Of a stretch of 35,163 nucleotides of DNA, positions 268-32,650 are shown piece after piece. The notes below the pieces were generated by a model that was given only the letters and a program-made list of their open reading frames with translations, had not been told where the DNA came from and did not search any database. The position numbers were made by a program, and so were the translations under genes. The stretch's first letter is position 1, and each line of letters opens with the position of its first letter. Source of the DNA: Synergistaceae bacterium (GTDB lineage Bacteria; Synergistota; Synergistia; Synergistales; Aminobacteriaceae). The DNA lies in contig JAIRYN010000027.1 in NCBI GenBank assembly GCA_031267575.1, forward strand, positions 1 to 35,163, in the 5' to 3' direction.

Positions 268-268
268 T

Positions 269-1396
269 TTATGTAAAGACTATATTGTTACCTCTGGGAT
301 TCAGCAACGCGACGATGGGGACACGCATATCCGTCGCAAGGTGCGTGAGTTTCTTTACACCTTCCAATAATCTAGACTTTATCACGGAAATGTCGTGTCT
401 GCACCGATCCAAAAAAGCATCTTCCTTCAAAGCAATCTCGGCGAGGACCGCGGCCTGCCGGGTAACAGCGAAAGGTGAGCTGACCTTGTCACAGTACTTC
501 ATGACTTCCTCGTCGCAGATCACGTAGCCGATTCGGAGGCCTGCCATACCGTAACCCTTCGAGAAAGAGCGCGCTATGATGAGGTTTTTGTATTTAGGCA
601 TCAGGGACACCACAGACTCACCTTTCGTTATGAAGTCACCGTAAGCCTCGTCGACTAGGACCGCCGCTCCCAATTCCGCCGCGCGGGCGAGAATGATTTC
701 TATCCCGTCGAGACCGATAACCTGTCCCGTCGGGTTGTTTGGGTTATCAATATACACCAAGGCGTGGTCCTCTGTAATCGCGCCGGATAATTTTTCCGCG
801 TCAAAGCGACAATCGTCGTTTTCCCTGTTTTTTCTGAAATCCACAGCCTCGTAAACACCACCAAGGGAAAGGACTCCGGCAGAAAAATCTGTAAACTGAG
901 GCAAATAGCCTAAAACATTCACCCCTTCGCCCACAAACGCCCTGCACACAGCCTCCAGAACGGCAATCGAGCCGCCGTACAAGCGTACCTGCGATGGTCG
1001 CAGGCACGCATACTCCGCCCAAAAATCAGCGATAGCCCTCAACGTGGAATCGTAAGGAAAGTTTGGATAAGAGACGATATCCCCTAACCGTTCAAGCCCT
1101 CCCTGCTTGATGCTCGCCTGGCAAAGGGTTTCAGGAGGGCCAGTGAGGTCGCTTTCGGCCGAACGAGCTCCGCCCCCCTGAGCTTGAACAATTACGATAT
1201 CCTTAACATCCAACCCCGCAGCCTGTGTCACCAATTCGGGAGTTCCAAACGGATTGACGCCCAAAGAACAGTCCAACGTCACTTCATATTCCCCAAAATC
1301 GTCGGGCTTAATATAAGTCTGCTTTTCATAATCAACGAGACATCGTTTGAATCGCAGGCTTTTGCTAAATATTTTTTCACTCACCTCTGTAGTCAT
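269..1396 (-). CDS. HisC-like class I/II aminotransferase, probably C-terminally shortened
   Basis: This is a fold-type I PLP aminotransferase of the histidinol-phosphate aminotransferase / CobD-like group, a cytosolic enzyme moving an amino group from an amino acid to a keto substrate or the reverse. Visible motifs are SLGVNPFG near the N-terminus, NPNNPTG (about 219-224), DEAYGDF (249-255) and the PLP lysine in SFSKGYGMAGLRIGY (Lys about 280). The start is taken as ATG 1396-1394; an in-frame TTG sits directly before it. Two oddities stand out. Residues about 68-100 are an extra peptide between the N-terminal arm and the SYPNFPYD motif, encoded by a palindromic repeat also present in the LpxK fusion gene. 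The protein also stops at NPRGNNIVFT, where relatives usually carry some 30 more residues, right at the edge of a tandem repeat. The exact substrate cannot be decided from sequence. Confidence 0.75.
   Translation of the reverse strand: MTTEVSEKIFSKSLRFKRCLVDYEKQTYIKPDDFGEYEVTLDCSLGVNPFGTPELVTQAAGLDVKDIVIVQAQGGGARSAESDLTGPPETLCQASIKQGGLERLGDIVSYPNFPYDSTLRAIADFWAEYACLRPSQVRLYGGSIAVLEAVCRAFVGEGVNVLGYLPQFTDFSAGVLSLGGVYEAVDFRKNRENDDCRFDAEKLSGAITEDHALVYIDNPNNPTGQVIGLDGIEIILARAAELGAAVLVDEAYGDFITKGESVVSLMPKYKNLIIARSFSKGYGMAGLRIGYVICDEEVMKYCDKVSSPFAVTRQAAVLAEIALKEDAFLDRCRHDISVIKSRLLEGVKKLTHLATDMRVPIVALLNPRGNNIVFT
1126..1198 (-). repeat. Palindromic repeat translated in frame inside the HisC-like gene
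   Basis: This segment is about 70% identical over roughly 70 bp to 17833-17905, at the 3' end of the LpxK fusion gene, in the same strand and reading frame. Both encode a peptide of the form QAQ-G-A-SA---L-GPPET. The ends are nearly self-complementary (TCAGGAGGGC against GCCCCCCTGA), so the segment could fold into a long hairpin. Confidence 0.7.
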
Positions 1397-1404
1397 CAAA
1401 ACTT

Positions 1405-1650
1405 ATTCCGATCCTTTCAGCGTATTAATACCTACTTATAACGAGTAGATACATTTCGCGTAGTATTTCTTTGACTATGAAGCCAAAGAAAAAGCTGAAT
1501 CTCGCAAAACTCGCGAAAATGCTCCATAAGCGCCGTTGTAGTACAGATCTACAACAATGGACCACCTCCTTATTGTCAAACTTATTGTCAAACTTATTGT
1601 CAAAACACACTACCCTGCTACCTACGCCGTTTGATGCATCGTACATAAAC
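1405..1650 (-). mobile_element. IS607-derived non-autonomous repeat, copy A
   Basis: On the minus strand the left part resembles the 5' end of the IS607 tnpA at 25524 (YTVYQAAEVTG region decayed to YDASNGVGSRV). It is followed by a 12-bp unit (cttattgtcaaa) present nearly three times at 1570-1605. The right part matches the 3' end of the IS607 element closely over about 120 bp, ending GGTATTAATACGCTGAAAGG. The right end stops next to the start of the HisC-like gene. The body is about 240 bp and encodes no functional protein. Confidence 0.75.
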
Positions 1651-2931: not shown

Positions 2932-3250
2932 ACTAACGGCTTCAGCCGTTGGATGAGAATCGCAACGCTGCCAACGGCAGCGTTTGTTTTGTATTTGGTT
3001 TCTTGCCATATGGCTACTTTCATGTTAAACTCCTTTTATGGCTTATCAACACGAGATGCGGGGCGGAACACGACCGGGATATTAATGCGGCTGTAAATAT
3101 TCTCAGAGTGGGGGGCGTCTACTCTTATGGGGGCATTAACTCTTAAATGGGGGCATTAACTCTTAAAGGAGAAGATGTAAGACCGGTTTCAGTCGGCTGG
3201 CTTTTTCGATCTTAGAATACCATAACTTTAGTCGTGGGAGTATGTTAACT
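2932..3250 (+). mobile_element. IS200/IS605-type element remnants
   Basis: The stretch between the YkvI-like gene and mutY holds decayed insertion-sequence ends. Two perfect hairpins stand side by side: AACGGC-TTCA-GCCGTT (2935-2950) followed by GGATGAGAA, and AACGCTGCC-AAC-GGCAGCGTT (2964-2984). A TnpB C-terminal fragment, a 20-bp tandem duplication (3127-3146 and 3147-3166) and the end ACTTTAGTCGTGGGAGTATG (about 3225-3244) follow. The last sequence recurs at 8638-8656. The 100 bases from 3251 to 3350 contain only the mutY leader. Confidence 0.65.
3045..3146 (+). pseudogene. TnpB C-terminal fragment
   Basis: The frame reads CGAEHDRDINAAVNILRVG and then stops. This is the conserved end of IS200/IS605/IS607 TnpB proteins: the last zinc-finger cysteine pair region plus the RuvC-III motif DRDxNAAxNI with its catalytic Asp. 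Everything upstream that should encode the rest of TnpB is missing, and the frame before it runs into hairpin sequence. It is a non-functional relic. Confidence 0.7.
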
Positions 3251-3350
3251 AATCTATTTTTTTGTCCGCATCCACCATATAAAATAAATCATATAAAATA
3301 AATATTGATAAAGCTAAAATCACTGGCGAAAGAGAGGGGGTATTTTCGCG

Positions 3351-8556: not shown

Positions 8557-8656
8557 GATTTTCATTGCGCTCTCTCCCATTCAAAAAGAGCGCGCTCTCC
8601 CATTCAAAAGGACCAGTACTATTTTACAGCCCCACGACTTTAGTCGTGGGAGTATG
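8557..8656 (+). mobile_element. IS200/IS605-type end remnant (hairpin)
   Basis: A perfect hairpin CCCACGACT-TT-AGTCGTGGG (8631-8650) is followed by AGTATGTCAA. The part from ACTTTAGTC to AGTATG recurs at about 3225-3244 and looks like the subterminal hairpin of an IS200/IS605 end. Upstream, a segment containing ctctcccattcaaaa occurs twice (8574-8588 and 8597-8611). No transposase gene is present here. The remnant fills the pth to M20 gap (8535-8737). Confidence 0.55.
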
Positions 8657-8737
8657 TCAAGCCCTTATTTTTTCTGTTAGAATAACTGAAACTTGTTTAT
8701 TCCTGGAAAGGCGTATCTTATAATGAGGAGGAGTCCC

Positions 8738-11922: not shown

Positions 11923-13275
11923 CTACATAAACGTACTCAATATCAAAGCTCCCACACAACCCGTTACTCCTACGATGGTTTCCATGATTGTCCATGTTTT
12001 CAACGTCGTTTTCTCGTCGATTTCCATCAGTTGCTTCACCAACCAGAAGCCGGAGTCGTTTACATGACTCATGATAGTTGCGCCTCCGGCAATGGATGCC
12101 GTCATAGCCGCCAGATGTATTGGGCTCAATGCAGAGACTTCAGGCATGGAAGCCATAATGCCCGCCGCCATCGTCATGGCCACGGTAGCGCTGCCAACAC
12201 TGATGCGCACCAGTCCCGCCACCAGGAAGGCAACCAATACCAGCGGTAACGGCGTTTGGGCTACCACAGCCCCGATCACGTTACCCAAACCGCTGTCCTG
12301 CAACATATATCGCAGTACGCCGCCGCCGGCCGTCACCAGCATGATCATGCCGGTAGGGGCAAGACTTCGACTCATCACCTTTTCCAGTTCATCGGCGGAA
12401 TAGCCGTGTTTAGTGCCTAGCACATAGAGGGCTATGACGGTGGAGATGGTGAGCGAAATAAACGGTGTGCCGATAAATCCGAGAATGGGGCGTAACGAAG
12501 TTAAAGCAGGGACGACTCCCGATACGGTGTTGAGTAGAATGAAAACCAGCGGGATAAGGATGATACCCACCACCGTGAAAAATCCGGGCATTTTACTTTC
12601 GTCCACATCCGGCATTTCAGCGTAATTTTTAGGTACTGGCACGTTGAACTTTCCACCACAATAGCGTCCAAAAAGAATGCCCCCACACAACATCGCGACC
12701 AGACCAACCCCTACTCCCACGGCAATCACCAGACCAAGATCGACTCCCAGCATGTTTGCCACCAGAACTGGGCCAGGCGTTGGCGGAATAAACGTGTGTC
12801 CCACCGCAAGCCCTGCCAGAAGCGGTATGGCGTAATACATAGTCGATTTTCCGGTCTTTTTGGCGGTGCTGAAAGCCAGTGGAATCAGGATGATCAGGCC
12901 AGCGTCAAAGAATACCGGCGTCGCGACTACCATTCCCGTAATCCCCAGAGCCCAGGCCGCTTTGCTATCGCCAAATTTATTCACCAGCGTATTAGCAATT
13001 TTCTGAGCGCCGCCAGAAATTTCCAGAATAGCGCCAAACATAGAGCCTAGCCCCACTAGCAATGCAATGCCCTTCAATGTTTCACCCATGCCCTTGTTGA
13101 CGGTGTCAACGATCATGAGCAAGGGCATACCCGCGATGACGCCGATGACAATGGCGCTGATGATGATAGCGATAACGGCCTGCAATTTACATTTGATAAT
13201 AAGGAAAAGCAAAAACAGGATGCCAATAATGGCGGCAAGAATTAACCGGGTGGGATCCGCAATAAACTGTTCCAT
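11923..13275 (-). CDS. GntP-family gluconate/sugar-acid:H+ symporter
   Basis: This membrane permease has about 450 residues and about 12-14 hydrophobic segments. It closely follows the GntP/GntT/GntU pattern, including ATPVFFDAGLIILIPLAF, HTFIPPTPGPVLVANMLG, RISVGSATVAMTMAAGI and SHVNDSGFWLV. It should import gluconate or a related aldonate. The ATG at 13275 (MEQFIADPT) fits family N-termini; an in-frame TTG at 13287 would add four residues. Its upstream region is IS607-derived repeat copy B, whose GAAAGGAT end lies 7-17 bases before the TTG/ATG. It pairs with the IlvD/Edd-type dehydratase upstream on the same strand. Confidence 0.92.
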   Translation of the reverse strand: MEQFIADPTRLILAAIIGILFLLFLIIKCKLQAVIAIIISAIVIGVIAGMPLLMIVDTVNKGMGETLKGIALLVGLGSMFGAILEISGGAQKIANTLVNKFGDSKAAWALGITGMVVATPVFFDAGLIILIPLAFSTAKKTGKSTMYYAIPLLAGLAVGHTFIPPTPGPVLVANMLGVDLGLVIAVGVGVGLVAMLCGGILFGRYCGGKFNVPVPKNYAEMPDVDESKMPGFFTVVGIILIPLVFILLNTVSGVVPALTSLRPILGFIGTPFISLTISTVIALYVLGTKHGYSADELEKVMSRSLAPTGMIMLVTAGGGVLRYMLQDSGLGNVIGAVVAQTPLPLVLVAFLVAGLVRISVGSATVAMTMAAGIMASMPEVSALSPIHLAAMTASIAGGATIMSHVNDSGFWLVKQLMEIDEKTTLKTWTIMETIVGVTGCVGALILSTFM

Positions 13276-13287
13276 GTGTGATTTCAA

Positions 13288-13512
13288 TCCTTTCAGCGTA
13301 CTAATACCTATTTATAACGAATAGATACGTTTCGCGCAGTATTTTTTCGACTATGAAGCCAAAGAAAAAAAAGAAAAATCTGAATCTCGCAAAGCTCGTG
13401 GAAATATTCCACTACAACGTCAATAGCTATCGGGACGCATATGAAGCATCTATCAGACTCCAAAGTCAATCATAAATTCTACCTTCATCGGCCCACCTCC
13501 TTATTTTCGTTT
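13288..13512 (-). mobile_element. IS607-derived non-autonomous repeat, copy B
   Basis: On the minus strand the copy begins with GGAGGTGGGC-GATGAAGG, matching codons about 22-28 of the IS607 tnpA. An approximately 85-bp middle shared with copy D follows, then the conserved right end of about 120 bp finishing in GTATTAGTACGCTGAAAGG. The small hairpin near the end has changed as a pair (CTATT/AATAG here, CTACT/AGTAG in copies A and D). It occupies the gap between the dehydratase and permease genes. Confidence 0.75.
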
Positions 13513-15498: not shown

Positions 15499-15526
15499 TT
15501 GGTCTTCTTTTGAAATGCTGTACAAT
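15499..15526 (+). promoter_or_regulatory. Possible promoter of the GntR regulator gene
   Basis: TTGGTC (15499-15504) and TACAAT (15521-15526) are 16 bases apart. The -10 box runs directly into a 13-bp tandem repeat that forms the 5' UTR. Confidence 0.4.
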
Positions 15527-15601
15527 GATTTTGCGTAATGATTTTGTAAAATGATTTTGTAAAATGGTTTTGTAAAATGACTTTGTAAAATGACTTTGTT
15601 A
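15524..15601 (+). repeat. Six 13-bp tandem repeats in the regulator leader
   Basis: The unit aatgattttgtaa occurs six times without gaps, with single-base changes. The array lies between the predicted -10 box and the ATG of the regulator gene. Confidence 0.9.
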
Positions 15602-15644
15602 ATTAGGAAACAATGATGTCGCAATCGCACAGGGGGAATTATGC

Positions 15645-22851: not shown

Positions 22852-23424
22852 TCAAACCAGGCTTTTGACCGCTATCAAGAGACTTCCCCCCACGGTTGTC
22901 AGAAGAGAATGACGCTCACTCGTCCACAGTATCCGCTTATCGAAGGGGCCGGCAATCCGACCGACCGGCCAGGCTTTTGGGAAGAAGCGCCCGGTTCTTT
23001 CCTTGTAGCGGCCGTATTCCATCCCGAATTTCTCCGAAAGAAAGGATTCCTCGTGAGGAACGATAAAGACAGTATACAGCAAAACGAACGTTATCACAAA
23101 AAACACCGTGGGCCAAAATCCAGTCATCAAACCCCAGCCCAAGCCAATCAATCCATTACCTAGGTAAAGCGGATTTCTCACAAAAGCGTAGGGCCCCCAG
23201 GTTGTTAAGGTCATAGCCCCCACCCGCTCTCCCCTGTAGCGTCCGATACACCCCACGGCCCAAAAACGGAGCGCCTGCCCCACAGCCACCAGAGGCCCTC
23301 CCCAAAGCATAGAACTGGGCGTCGGGTGGGCCAGAAATAACATGGCGGCAAAGAGCAGAGTCCACACGCCTCCCCGCAGTCGGAAGGCCTTTTCCCCGAT
23401 ACGCTTCAAGCTATAGGCTTCCAT
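22852..23424 (-). CDS. ICMT/PEMT-like membrane methyltransferase
   Basis: This integral membrane protein has 190 residues and about four or five hydrophobic segments. The C-terminal half carries the isoprenylcysteine carboxyl methyltransferase-type pattern: GPYAFVRNPLYLGNGL, then a membrane pair, then VPHEESFLSEKFGMEYGRYKERTGRFFP. The RNPxY and late E-x-x-L...Y-x-x-Y features form the SAM-binding region in this superfamily. Bacterial members methylate small or lipid substrates that are mostly unknown. Its ATG lies inside the end of the preceding gene (14-base overlap), so translation is probably coupled. Confidence 0.8.
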   Translation of the reverse strand: MEAYSLKRIGEKAFRLRGGVWTLLFAAMLFLAHPTPSSMLWGGPLVAVGQALRFWAVGCIGRYRGERVGAMTLTTWGPYAFVRNPLYLGNGLIGLGWGLMTGFWPTVFFVITFVLLYTVFIVPHEESFLSEKFGMEYGRYKERTGRFFPKAWPVGRIAGPFDKRILWTSERHSLLTTVGGSLLIAVKSLV

Positions 23425-24508
23425 CCTGTTCTTTCAATTTTTTCAACTTTTTCAGCTGCGCGGCTTCTTCTTCAGGAGACGCGCCTTTATGTAGGTCTTC
23501 GGTGACACCCCATCCCAGCATTTTAACGACGACGATGACGCCCATGAAAATCGAAAGGTACTCCGTAAAGAAACGCCAGATGACAGCCATGATCCCCGCC
23601 ATATTCCAGGGCATCAGGGTTCCAAAAAGAGCAGCGCCGCCGCTCTCCGCCACTCCGCTGGCGCCTGGCGTGGGGATGAAGTAGAGGACAAACATAAAAA
23701 CGGCTTGAGTCGCCAGAGTCTGAGCGAAATTGAAGGGCAGCCCCACGGCCAACATTAAAACCGGCAATACGGAAAAAATACTCAAAAGATGAGCCACCGA
23801 CAAGAGGATAGCCACGGCCGAGTACAAAAATCCGCTGGAAAAAGCCAGCCTGAAGTTTAGGTTGTAGTTGTCGATCTCGCAGTCCAGCCATTGGAAAGAC
23901 TTTTTGACGATTTTGGAGGACCTCAAAAAATTCAATTTTCTCGTCCACATTACCACGATTTTGCCCAACCGTTTAATGGAGTTGGGGCGTAGAATCGTGT
24001 AAGCGATAAAGAGCCACGTGCAGAAGATCACGACAAAGACGTAGCCTACCATACCCTTAATGAAGGGATTACCGTCTAAGAGCGCGGGGTCGATGAAAAG
24101 AGCGATGGGAACGATCAGACTCAGGATCAAGATGGTCAGCATGGTGCGGATGAGGGTGATCGCGATGCCTTTCCCCACGGGAATACCCCTTTTATAAAGG
24201 ACATAAACCTGAAAAGGGCCGCCGCCGCTTTGCATGGGGGTAACCGCGCAACCGAAATAATGAAGCCACGTGAGGACGATACCCAATTTAAAAGGGACGT
24301 GTTCATGGGCAGCGCGCACCAGAGCGCAGAAACGCGCCGCGTCGCAGCCCCAAGCCATGAACACCAATCCAAACGCCACCAGAAGATAGCTTTTATCGGC
24401 GGCGAAAAGAGAGCGTATCGTCTCCCTATCCACGCTCTGGGCCAGCACGATCGCGTTGGCGCCAAAGGCAAGCAGAACGAAAACGATCAAGCCTTTACGA
24501 AGAGACAA
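23411..24508 (-). CDS. Lysylphosphatidylglycerol synthase TM / UPF0104-family membrane protein
   Basis: A 365-residue integral membrane protein with about eight hydrophobic helices. It has the family-typical CAVTPMQSGGGPFQVYVL and FIPTPGASGVAESGGAALFG segments, as in the flippase-like half of MprF and the AglD/UPF0104 proteins. The synthetase half of MprF is absent, so lipid flipping or polysaccharide assembly is more likely than lysyl transfer. The start appears to be TTG 24508 (MSLRKGLIV). The only ribosome site is GAAAGGAT, about 8 bases upstream, and it belongs to the right end of the IS607 element. The C-terminus is a charged LKKLKKLKEQ repeat. It is the first gene of the envelope operon. 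Confidence 0.85.
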   Translation of the reverse strand: MSLRKGLIVFVLLAFGANAIVLAQSVDRETIRSLFAADKSYLLVAFGLVFMAWGCDAARFCALVRAAHEHVPFKLGIVLTWLHYFGCAVTPMQSGGGPFQVYVLYKRGIPVGKGIAITLIRTMLTILILSLIVPIALFIDPALLDGNPFIKGMVGYVFVVIFCTWLFIAYTILRPNSIKRLGKIVVMWTRKLNFLRSSKIVKKSFQWLDCEIDNYNLNFRLAFSSGFLYSAVAILLSVAHLLSIFSVLPVLMLAVGLPFNFAQTLATQAVFMFVLYFIPTPGASGVAESGGAALFGTLMPWNMAGIMAVIWRFFTEYLSIFMGVIVVVKMLGWGVTEDLHKGASPEEEAAQLKKLKKLKEQDGSL

Positions 24509-24521
24509 TATACCGATCCTT

Positions 24522-24992
24522 TCAGCGTACTAATACCCATTGATAACCTACTAGATACGTTTCGCATAGTATCCCTTCGACTATAAAGTCAAAGAAAAAG
24601 CTAAATCTCGCGAATCTCATGGAAACTCTTGAAATAAGTTGGTGTGCCTGCTTAAATACCATCTTACAACGCTTGACTGCGTTGCTAACGTCCTTCACTG
24701 CTATTATCTTTATTCGATATAGAATTCGATATAGAACTTCTCTTGTCCACTCTAGAAGATTTGGAAGGAGCGGAAGATTTAGAAGGAACCACTTTTTTAT
24801 TTTCATCTTTATTTTCATCCAGCTTGCTCTTGTTCTCGGGCACTTCAGGTAAACAGTCGTTTGGTTGTAGACATACCTCGCCCCCCCCATCCATTGCCTC
24901 AACATCCGCCGTTGCGTCATCATTGGGTAGATTGGGTAGATTGGATAAATTCGAATCTTCCGCGATTTTAGCTTTGTATTTTTTGAGTCCAT
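24522..24992 (-). pseudogene. tnpB: Truncated IS607 TnpB (N-terminal part)
   Basis: From ATG 24992 the frame gives a typical TnpB N-terminus: SRKIRIYP, then QRRMLRQWMGGARYVYNQT, then a degenerate IAVKDVSNAVKRCKMVFK. After about 120 residues it runs into the element's right end and stops at 24522. The RuvC catalytic motifs and the zinc finger are missing. Even this part contains in-frame expansions (IYPIYPIYP, MKIKMKIK, LYRILYR). The first 300 bases overlap the end of tnpA in another frame. Confidence 0.8.
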
Positions 24993-25524
24993 GAAGACGA
25001 CAAGAGAAGACATGCAAGATGGTAAGCAAGTCTTTTGTGAGTTCCTCTTCTGGAGAAAGTGAAACCTCGTTGAGAACCACGATTTTTCCACCATTGCGGT
25101 TGAGAATAAATTCGATAATCCCCGACCCAAATCTTGCAAGACGGTCTCGGTAAGCAACCACAAGCGTAATAATAGCTCCTGATATGCTTCGTTCCAGTAT
25201 GGAGAGCAATCCTTTCCGCTTGAAGTTGATTCCAGAACCAATGTCTTTGACGATTTCGGCATTGGGGTACTTGCTTCGCATAAACTCGACTTGCCTTTGC
25301 AAGTCGTTTTTTTGCTTTGCGCTTGAAACTCGGCAGTAACAGATTGTGAAGTCTCGATTATTTTCTGTGGGTTTCGGTAGCAGGTACTCGGACACATCAA
25401 CTCGCCTGTGACCTCCTTTTGTCCGAACACTATAGATCCTGCCTTCATCTGCCCACCTCCTAATAGTTCCAATACTCAACCCTGTTACCTCTGCTGCTTG
25501 GTACACCGTATATAGTCTAGCCAT
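24685..25524 (-). CDS. tnpA: IS607-family serine recombinase TnpA
   Basis: The N-terminal MerR-like helix-turn-helix (LYTVYQAAEVTGLSIGTIRRW, about 4-45) is followed by the small serine-recombinase domain: YCRVSSAKQKNDLQRQ with catalytic Ser about 67, SGINFKRKGL, and VAYRDRLARFG. The family core ends near VFSCRLHGLKKYKAKI (about 205). The reading frame continues some 75 residues as a low-complexity Ser/Lys/Asn/Glu tail where it overlaps tnpB, giving 279 residues in total. The catalytic core looks intact, so the protein may still be active and could move the short copies. The -10 box is so close to the ATG that the message would be nearly leaderless. Confidence 0.88.
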   Translation of the reverse strand: MARLYTVYQAAEVTGLSIGTIRRWADEGRIYSVRTKGGHRRVDVSEYLLPKPTENNRDFTICYCRVSSAKQKNDLQRQVEFMRSKYPNAEIVKDIGSGINFKRKGLLSILERSISGAIITLVVAYRDRLARFGSGIIEFILNRNGGKIVVLNEVSLSPEEELTKDLLTILHVFSCRLHGLKKYKAKIAEDSNLSNLPNLPNDDATADVEAMDGGGEVCLQPNDCLPEVPENKSKLDENKDENKKVVPSKSSAPSKSSRVDKRSSISNSISNKDNSSEGR

Positions 25525-25561
25525 AGTGACTAGACTATAGCACGTATCAATATTTTGTCAA
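25511..25561 (-). promoter_or_regulatory. tnpA promoter with inverted repeat over the start codon
   Basis: On the minus strand, TTGACA (25561-25556) and TATAGT (25539-25534) are 16 bases apart; the ATG is at 25524-25522. Perfect 10-base arms TATAGTCTAG and CTAGACTATA (25539-25530 and 25520-25511) bracket the ATG and include the -10 box. Confidence 0.7.
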
Positions 25562-25647
25562 GTACTTATTTATAGGAATAAATATTTGACTAAACTCTAT
25601 ATATTGATCGCCCATCTAGGGCGCGACAACTTAAAATACAAAAACAT

Positions 25648-29640: not shown

Positions 29641-29713
29641 ATCATTTCAGATTATTTCAGATTATTTCCGACTCATTTCAGATCATTTCCGCATACTAAT
29701 ACCTACTCAATTA
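29641..29713 (-). repeat. IS607 right-end fragment with tandem repeat
   Basis: Positions 29681-29710 (gatcatttccgcatactaat and onward) match the IS607 right end with few changes. Just before it, gatcatttcag-type units of about 11 bases repeat at 29641-29690. Unlike the other copies, it lies at gene 3' ends and not before a start codon. Confidence 0.6.
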
Positions 29714-30246: not shown

Positions 30247-32199
30247 TCAAGACTTGCCATCAGAATCACGCCCAATAAGAGCCGCGCCCATAATGTCGGC
30301 CAAATAACGCGCGAAACGTCCGGGATCGGCGATAATCCCTCCATCCAAGATCAGAGCCTGGTCGTACAACACCGACACAAAATCCCCTACCCTCTCGTCG
30401 CCATTTCCGGCCAACTCCATCAGGCGACGAATCACGGGATGCTCCGGGTTGACCTCCAGAACGCGCTTGCTCGGAGGGGCTTCCTGACCCATAGCGCGCA
30501 TCAATTGCTCCATCTGGAAGGACATGGCGTTTCCGTCACCCACAAGGCACACCGGAGAGGCGGTCATACGTGCGGACAACCGCACGTCGCTCAGGGCGTC
30601 GCCTAGAGACTTCATGATCACTTCTTTCAATGGCGTAAAATCGGACTGGAATCCTTCCATCTTTTTCTCCGCTTCCTTGCGCTCCTCCTCGGTGCTTGCC
30701 TGCACCGAGCCAGAACCCACGTCCAAGAATTTCGTTTCCCCGTACACGTGAGTCTGAGACATGATAACCTCATCCACAGGATCTGTGAGCAACAAAACCT
30801 CGTAGCCCCTTTCCAGAAACGCCTCCAGTTTCGGCGATCCCTTCAAGGTGGAGACGTCTCGGCCCACGAGGGTATAGATACCTTCCTGACCAGGCTTCAT
30901 GCGGCTTTTATAGGAATCCAAAGTCGTCCATCCACCGCCATTCGCCTCCACGCCTCCCGCGCAATGGAATAAGGATAACTCCAGGATTGTCTGGGCGTTT
31001 TCCTGGTCGTGCACGACGCCTTCTTTAAAGACTTTACCGAAAACCGACCAGAATTTTTCGTATTTTTCACGCTCGTTCTCCAGCATTTTGCGGAAACTCG
31101 CGAAGAGCTTGCGCAACGTACTGCGGCGCATAACCCGAACCCGCTGGTCCTCCTGGAGGATCTCTCTCGATATGTTGAGCGGCAGGTCCTCCGAGTCGAT
31201 AACGCCTTTGATGAAGCGTAGGTACTCTGGAATCAGGTCTTTGCAGTCATTCATGATGAAGACGCGTTTGATGTAAAGGCTGATTCCTCCGCTGTAGGTG
31301 TTCATGAAGAGGTCGAAGGGAGCCTGCTGGGGGATGAACAAGAGCCCTCTGAAGTTGACCGAGCCCTCAGCGTTGATGGTGACGCGCGTCAGAGGCTCCT
31401 GCCAATCGTGAGAGAGATGGCGGTAGAACTCGCGGTACTCCTCCTCCGTGACTTCTCCCTCAGGTTTACACCAGATTGCCTTCTGGGAGTTGACGACCTC
31501 GTCCTCGATGGTTTCCTTCTTATCTTTCCACTTCGCGCAGTTCATCACGATGGGGTAGCTGATGAAGTCGGAGTATTTTCCGATGATGTCGCGGAGCACC
31601 CATTCGTCCGTGTAATCTTTCTCGTCTTTTTCCTCCCCCTCCTCTGGCTTTCGGAGGTAGAGCTTTACCGAGGTGCCGCACTCAGGGAGCGCGGCTTCTT
31701 CCAGGCTGTAGGACCCATCTCCCGTGGACTCGAACTTCCATGCCTCAGAGGAACCCAGCCGTCGAGAGACAAGTTCCACCTTGTCGGAAACCATGAAGGC
31801 GGAGTAAAACCCCACTCCAAACTGTCCAATCAACATCTCCTGAGTGGAAAACGACGCTTTTTTCCCGGAGGCGTCTCGCCCAGCCGCGGCCAGATATTCC
31901 TTCGTCCCCGACTTGGCGATAGTGCCGATGTAATTGATGATCTCCTCTCGACTCATCCCCACGCCGTTGTCGAGAATGGTCAGGGTTCGTTTCTCCTTGT
32001 CTCGCTCGACGCGGATCTTCGCCTCATACTCCCCATACTCGTCACTGGACAAAACCTCTATCCTGCGCTTATCCAGGGCGTCAGAAGCGTTGGAGATCAA
32101 CTCCCTCAAAAAGATTTCTTTGTTGGAGTAAACGGAGTGGATCATCATTTTTAGAAGCTCCGCCGCCTCCGATTGGAAGAAATATTTTTCCTGTGCCAC
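30247..32199 (-). CDS. htpG: HtpG (Hsp90-family chaperone)
   Basis: This ATP-dependent cytosolic chaperone has 650 residues. The GHKL ATPase domain has FLRELISNASDALDKRR, ILDNGVGMSREE, IGTIAKSGTKE and GQFGVGFYSAFMVSDKVEL. The middle domain has IKRVFIMNDCKDLIPEYLRF and DSEDLPLNISREILQE. The C-terminal dimerisation domain ends with a short polar tail. The start is GTG 32199 (VAQEKYFF read as Met). The GAAAGGAT at the end of repeat copy D lies about 11 bases upstream and is the only visible ribosome site. It is followed by a small hypothetical gene. Confidence 0.95.
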   Translation of the reverse strand: MAQEKYFFQSEAAELLKMMIHSVYSNKEIFLRELISNASDALDKRRIEVLSSDEYGEYEAKIRVERDKEKRTLTILDNGVGMSREEIINYIGTIAKSGTKEYLAAAGRDASGKKASFSTQEMLIGQFGVGFYSAFMVSDKVELVSRRLGSSEAWKFESTGDGSYSLEEAALPECGTSVKLYLRKPEEGEEKDEKDYTDEWVLRDIIGKYSDFISYPIVMNCAKWKDKKETIEDEVVNSQKAIWCKPEGEVTEEEYREFYRHLSHDWQEPLTRVTINAEGSVNFRGLLFIPQQAPFDLFMNTYSGGISLYIKRVFIMNDCKDLIPEYLRFIKGVIDSEDLPLNISREILQEDQRVRVMRRSTLRKLFASFRKMLENEREKYEKFWSVFGKVFKEGVVHDQENAQTILELSLFHCAGGVEANGGGWTTLDSYKSRMKPGQEGIYTLVGRDVSTLKGSPKLEAFLERGYEVLLLTDPVDEVIMSQTHVYGETKFLDVGSGSVQASTEEERKEAEKKMEGFQSDFTPLKEVIMKSLGDALSDVRLSARMTASPVCLVGDGNAMSFQMEQLMRAMGQEAPPSKRVLEVNPEHPVIRRLMELAGNGDERVGDFVSVLYDQALILDGGIIADPGRFARYLADIMGAALIGRDSDGKS

Positions 32200-32207
32200 C
32201 TGCTGTA

Positions 32208-32520
32208 CCGATCCTTTCAGCGTACTAATGCCTACTCATAACTAGTAGATACGTTTCGCATAGTGTTCCTTTGTAGAGACACACGATCTCTACACGCAAA
32301 CATTCGGATGCCCGGGCCAATAGCCACTGCGCGGCCTTGGTTTTCGGCTACAACATCAGCGGCTATTGGGACGCGTATGAACTTATCAGACTCCAAAATC
32401 AATCGTCAATTCCGTCTTCATCGGCCCCCTCCTTACTATCGAAACGCGACTGTCGAAACATACAGCCCTGTTACCTACGCCGCTTGATACTCCGTATATA
32501 ATTTCACCATAACACATTGT
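32208..32520 (-). mobile_element. IS607-derived non-autonomous repeat, copy D
   Basis: The minus strand begins with a decayed tnpA 5' end (YGVSSGVGNRAVCFD at about 32510-32450, from LYTVYQAAEVTG). It continues through the middle shared with copy B, then a TnpB-like segment reading QGRAVAIGPGIRMFAC (about 32342-32295), where relatives have AIDPG. A perfect hairpin GTAGAGA/TCTCTAC (32273-32293) and the conserved right end follow, finishing ATTAGTACGCTGAAAGG before htpG. The remaining gap 32521-32650 is AT-rich with no gene. Confidence 0.75.
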
Positions 32521-32650
32521 AACATTTTGTAATAGTTCATTCAGACAAAATATTAATGTATTATAGCTTGTCATGTGCAGATACTTACGCATTCTCTTCC
32601 TAAACGATTTTTTGCGTGACGTAAAAATAATTATAAGATATATTGATTCT

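Follow-up and report, generated by a model that had tools for sequence, protein, structure and literature searches.

Remnants of IS607-family transposons appear to supply replacement Shine-Dalgarno sequences in a Synergistaceae bacterium

Dozens of genes in a gut bacterium of the Synergistaceae, some of them essential, appear from a computational analysis of their leader sequences to be read from the tail of a transposon. The repeats that precede these genes are remnants of the IS607 family, whose elements encode a serine recombinase, TnpA, and an RNA-guided nuclease, TnpB. We consider it probable that such elements insert at Shine-Dalgarno (SD) motifs and that, in one of the two families described here (family 1), the end of the guide-RNA (reRNA) scaffold doubles as a replacement SD, so that insertions are tolerated even before essential genes and this end outlasts the erosion of the remaining element. 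The IS607 family itself is already known; the SD-replacing habit seems to be undescribed, and open-access texts on IS607 or TnpB yielded nothing relevant on the SD.

In the proposed mechanism, the element would recombine at a GG, mostly that of an (R)AGG, which is also the GG of a gene's SD. As GG is not symmetrical, the orientation would be fixed, with the right end always toward the gene and a few bases upstream of the start codon. The native SD would end up beyond the other end of the inserted element, and the right end, GAAAGGATC-GG, whose AAGGA is suitably spaced from the start codon, would take over as SD; we infer that ribosomes use it. Since the right end forms the conserved terminal part of the TnpB reRNA scaffold, the replacement SD is probably a by-product, one that makes insertion bearable even before essential genes. 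The remainder of the element could then erode freely, while the right end would stay because the gene needs it.

Copies in the window

The window, that is, the whole stretch of 35,163 nucleotides that was analysed, holds four copies of the repeat, A to D, all on the minus strand and each with the SD-like GAAAGGAT. Copy A (1408..1650) is an eroded element made of a remnant of the tnpA start (1613-1648), the tnpB 3′ end with the reRNA region, and the right end. Its SD, GAAAGGAT, lies at 1411-1418 and its GG at 1408-1409, and the HisC-like (aminotransferase-like) gene downstream (268..1396, minus strand) starts at ATG 1396, with TTG 1399 as a possible alternative. Copy B (13287..13512), also eroded, has the same SD at 13287-13294 and a mutated junction GG (TGA), and it precedes a GntP permease gene (11923..13275, minus strand; PF02447) that starts at ATG 13275. 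Copy C (24513..25613) keeps two ends and an intact tnpA (24688..25524, minus strand; 279 aa, with a MerR-type HTH and a serine resolvase domain), and its tnpB is gone save for the 3′ end; the SD at 24516-24523 faces a flippase-like gene of the LPG_synthase_TM family (23411..24508, minus strand; PF03706) with a TTG start at 24508. Finally, copy D (32208..32600) is a deletion derivative with a degraded left end, where the GG at 32599-32600 was placed by position, and its SD at 32211-32218 precedes htpG (30247..32199, minus strand), which starts at GTG 32199.

The earlier note had put all four copies in the same orientation, each with its right end close before a minus-strand start codon, two of these being TTG or GTG, and the rechecked coordinates, with all four right ends on the minus strand, agree with this. 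Of the extents that it gave, the right ends stand, whereas the left limits of C and D have to be moved to about 25613 and 32600, where a GG borders the left end. It had also singled out a fifth, degraded end as an exception, and rightly so: this right end (29681..29710, minus strand; match at 29682-29701) reads GAAATGAT, has lost the SD-like core and is followed by no gene start. Most other SD-less copies likewise have no gene start next to them. The conserved right end consists of GAAAGGATC and then GG, the crossover dinucleotide, and 0.00 chance matches to the 20-mer right end are expected in the window.

The window holds other repeats as well. A 13-base tandem repeat (TGTAAAATGATTT) occupies 15506-15609, directly upstream of a GntR-like regulator gene, and a 57-base repeat with the hairpin CACGACTTTAGTCGTGG, found at 3209-3265 and 8621-8677 and also at loci L007, L022, and L023, probably represents the ends of another transposon family. 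An Rfam scan of the window returned a tRNA only.

Identity of the elements

The TnpA of copy C matches NF033518, "IS607 family transposase", with 179 bits (cut-off 110). Intact 1.77-kb elements with both tnpA and tnpB are found in two genomes (G004 and G022) of a sister genus, g5, where near-identical copies imply recent movement as judged by sequence. There, TnpA scores 183 bits against the same model, with Resolvase and MerR Pfam matches, and TnpB (locus L322) reaches 119 bits for guided_TnpB (cut-off 100) and 57 bits for the TNB domain. In the genome that contains the window, G000, tnpB is either degraded or deleted in every family-1 copy that was examined, and most copies are without TnpB. 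In most copies, the approximately 100 bases before the right end comprise the last tnpB codons (...VVDRDYNGARGIFLRALRDSAFSLAL-stop) and the presumed reRNA scaffold, which is conserved and shows partial covariation. Family-1 ends matched no Rfam family, RF03064 (RAGATH-18) included.

The left junction reads GG/TGACAACATAGTAT in g5 and GG/(G)TTATACATAGTATCTG in G000, and the right junction GAAAGGATC/GG. There is no target-site duplication, as joined flanks are contiguous native leaders. On the features tested, namely, TnpA, TnpB, and GG crossover without duplication, the family-1 sequences agree with IS607 membership, and they share with IS607, IS1535, and ISXfa1 the NF033518 TnpA, the guided_TnpB match, a GG at both junctions and the absence of duplication. 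IS607 is known to insert at GG, with (G)GG preferred and no further preference for the H. pylori element (PMC6188088), and GG is the IS607 crossover dinucleotide (PMC10711439). Described IS607 elements show a preference for (G)GG only, in contrast to those here, which overwhelmingly occupy SDs and restore an SD through their right end.

The family-1 TnpB (L322:1784-3349) carries the DPG motif (AIDPGVRTF), the reported signature of IS607 TnpBs related to eukaryotic Fanzors (PMC10711439). At the left junction of the same locus, the upstream gene that the element interrupts ends at a TGA provided by the left end; the gene's native stop had overlapped the SD region.

Two other kinds of system resemble these repeats. 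TldRs are nuclease-dead TnpB repressors with a TnpB-derived guide RNA beside host genes. A presumed guide RNA of this origin also adjoins host genes here, but there is no sign of a nuclease-dead TnpB or of repression; a TldR-like repressor was dropped as a candidate, as the g5 TnpB keeps the DPG, FET, and DRDYNGA motifs (read by eye) and most G000 copies are without TnpB. MITEs and short bacterial repeats such as BOX, RUP, and Correia are likewise short, non-autonomous, intergenic and near genes. Here, however, the orientation is fixed, the distance to the start codon is defined, and one end is retained as an SD.

Position of right ends across genomes

The G000 genome (2.76 Mb, 76 contigs) contains 66 copies of the 20-base right end TATTAGTACGCTGAAAGGAT with at most three mismatches, while the reversed control gave none. 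Genes were called with a codon-usage model that is blind to SDs; as this is a simple caller, start codons are predictions, and the null came from 355 kb of G000, whose noncoding GG sites were put through the identical start test. A same-strand gene start lies just after 43 of the 56 SD-type ends, which keep GAAAGGAT, compared with 736 of 7017 noncoding GG sites (10.5%; p=4e-31), and the difference persists with noncoding RAGG sites as the null (p=4e-24). Ends with a mutated SD stand at the background level, with 2/10 before a start (Fisher test of SD versus SD-less ends, p=0.001). The distance from junction to start is tight, mostly 4-11 bases. Three SD-type ends that fail the automatic test precede ribosomal L31, ribosomal L34, and a Phd antitoxin according to Pfam, which brings the count to at least 46/56; loci L031, L047, and L048 are still negative after the Pfam scan. 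Among the downstream proteins scanned, 37/40 match a Pfam family, for instance, ribosomal L17, L31, and L34, CysS, phosphofructokinase (PFK), FlgH, and ETF-alpha, and the genes have no common function.

Thus, the "four of four" placement that had been noticed in the window is not a local pattern, the whole-genome tabulation of repeat ends against start codons gives no preference-free spread, and a native SD between repeat and gene occurs in only a minority of copies. Short tandem duplications of the junction are seen at L031 (G000 C30:13482 onward; GAAAGGATCGGTTTTCATT) and L055 (GGATCGGATGAA/TATG), perhaps through slippage at the new SD. The members of one compact subfamily, about 350 bases in length, have ends that lack the SD (AAAGAATC; L045, L049, L051, L053, L054, L058, L062, L240, and L241); their left flank is AGG in 7/7 cases, and they generally do not lie at gene starts.

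The right-end pattern is present in 10/183 genomes of the order. A start follows the right end in about 9/14 cases (about 64%) in g5, in perhaps 2/4 in G044, and in few in G090 and G096, and a fair share of copies precedes no gene in the latter two genomes and in parts of G044 and g5. Consequently, the behavior is not uniform.

Insertion at native SDs

Joining the flanks of two-ended copies mostly restores a native SD ahead of the start codon that the element end now precedes. In G000, these are AGGAGG-N10-ATG at rpmH (L059), GGAGGG (L044), GGGG-TGAGTCT-ATG (L035), and GAGG (L022); locus L333 gives GAAGG-N8-ATG, and the intact g5 elements give GGGAAGG-N7-TTG, GGGAGG-N6-ATG, and AGAGG-N10-ATG. 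The joined flank of copy C yields a weak SD only (GATGG; -3.5 kcal/mol). The base before the left-flank GG is A, forming AGG, in 15/19 copies; in the formally tested set, it is so in 13/17 versus a background of 23% (p=4e-6). Orthologous loci supply independent evidence. In the rpoA-rplQ gap, a native SD (mostly AAGGAGG or AGGAGGTG) is present in each of the 29 relatives scanned at the place where G000 has an element end 7-10 bases upstream of the rplQ start. In the htpG leader, L122 and L123 have native SDs (GGAGG/GGGGG), and L124, from another genome, has its own IS607 end.

A second, unrelated IS607 family, found in 12 copies in G000 (L345, L349, L354, L358, L361, L363, L365, L366, and L368-L371), carries the RAGATH-18 RNA (RF03064 match), for which family 1 has no match. 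Its right ends (GTAGGTTTTCAGTAGCAG) all lie 8-15 bases upstream of a same-strand start (12/12), and the ten downstream genes scanned all have Pfam families. Nevertheless, this end gives no SD, with a random-like median pairing energy of -3.3 kcal/mol (p=2e-5 versus family 1). Since family 2 lies before starts without supplying an SD, SD targeting is separable from SD replacement; that it survives there also means that replacement is not required. Its genes, among them those for urocanase, TctB, GGT, DUF1177, Dtd, and an SbcC-like protein, strike us as more dispensable than the family-1 set. Together with the joined flanks and the AGG bias, the placement of family 2 supports one of two suggestions made earlier, namely, that insertion targets the SD region. 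If AGGAG targeting were the sole factor, a start would be expected after only 32% of the noncoding sites; selection or another cue therefore adds to it.

The site bias might instead come from TnpB, as a variant of the best explanation that differs in the protein responsible: insertion would be wide, and only copies with a TAM-like left flank (AGGAG-like, as in an SD) would persist, being recopied after excision. RAGATH-18-type IS607 TnpBs, such as those of ISFba1 and its relatives, have AGGAG or GAGGG as TAMs (PMC11061315), and AGGAG is the SD core; the main text of that paper mentions neither Shine-Dalgarno nor ribosomes. Family 2 has AGGAG-like left flanks (those found are AAAGGAG, TAGGAG, AAAGAG, and AAAGGAA), and family-1 flanks are mostly RAGG. 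Nevertheless, TnpA's own target choice could yield identical flanks, and the family-1 TAM is only putative; sorting by TnpB is therefore possible, although we hold it to be the less probable source of the bias.

It is unlikely that insertion is random among GG sites and that selection alone, by removing genic insertions and sparing those at SDs through the new SD, produced the bias. Some observations do point that way: SD-less copies show no excess before genes (2/10), H. pylori IS607 has no preference beyond (G)GG (PMC6188088), and older, eroded G000 copies are more biased than the near-identical g5 copies. Against selection alone stand the 12/12 placement of family 2 and the AGG at the junction, and the g5 copies, being near-identical and hence recent, are already about 64% at starts. 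Targeting and retention are both supported and seem to act together; TnpA specificity, TnpB retention at SD-like TAM sites, and selection against harmful insertions may each contribute.

A further observation concerns L014:2060-2848 (G000 C39), where a group I intron-like match of 39 bits (below the cut-off) is followed by a RAGATH-18-like match of 30.7 bits. This appears to be an IStron-like element that splits an ABC-transporter reading frame, which splicing could restore.

Retention of the replacement SD

By its calculated pairing energy with the anti-SD, the leader produced by insertion is about as strong as a native one: the median is -7.4 kcal/mol after insertion, compared with -7.9 in native leaders and -3.6 in random sequence. 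The two ends of the element have had different fates. Comparable queries detected 18 left ends, of which 16 are paired with a right end, versus 56 SD-type right ends, and there are about 40 right-end-only remnants versus two left-end-only ones. Among 47 copies found by the scaffold motif, one family-1 copy is without the right end, and some copies have been eroded to about 30-70 bases and still stand before genes. The SD columns are barely better conserved than the remaining right end (0.953 versus 0.934); retention is therefore argued from the asymmetry of the ends and from the SD-less control. With the native-like strength of the new SD and the lack of enrichment of SD-mutated copies, this asymmetry supports the second suggestion, that copies are kept as drivers of translation. 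Copies of about 30-70 bases (L020, L043, and L018) persist, two of which (L018 and L020) lie in short gaps after an upstream same-strand gene. For this reason, we rejected a promoter within the right end as the chief cause of retention.

Within the transposon, the motif may have been kept for another reason. AAAGG..AT is nearly invariant, distant scaffolds included, and RNAalifold pairs the GGATC of the SD with a scaffold GATTC, with some compensatory changes and a weak consensus energy of -5.65. From these two features of the sequence, we think that the transposon keeps the SD-like motif for the sake of its guide RNA and that its use as an SD is coincidental or a secondary adaptation. The same pairing might suggest that the repeats are domesticated regulators, in which the scaffold folds over the SD and switches by folding or TnpB binding. 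This is very improbable, as copies of about 30-70 bases without the pairing partner persist before genes, the downstream genes have no common function, and the reRNA architecture accounts for a pairing that is weak in any case. Start codons are indeed predicted, but a gene-calling artefact or chance is already refuted, to the point of being negligible, by the Pfam-supported genes, the orthologous starts at rplQ and htpG, and a null obtained under the same test.

Implications

If IS607 elements insert and persist in this way, a mobile element can settle in those bases ahead of essential genes that are most sensitive to disruption, and survive because it carries a substitute for the signal that it displaces. 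The published AGGAG TAM of IS607 TnpBs would be tied to the SD sequence, and the motif would thereby get a reason. It becomes directly testable which of the two, retention by TnpB or targeting by TnpA, shapes the distribution of transposons. For annotators, there is a warning that transposon remnants can form the leaders of dozens of genes. More tentatively, and with rather less confidence than in any of this, TAMs with an SD core could be a general strategy, in which IS607 elements of a broad class both target the ribosome-binding site and are retained there. In some of them, the 3′ end of the guide RNA would have evolved into a substitute for that site, with the guide segment lying over the host start codon. 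If so, folding of the reRNA or binding of TnpB could influence the translation of many host genes.
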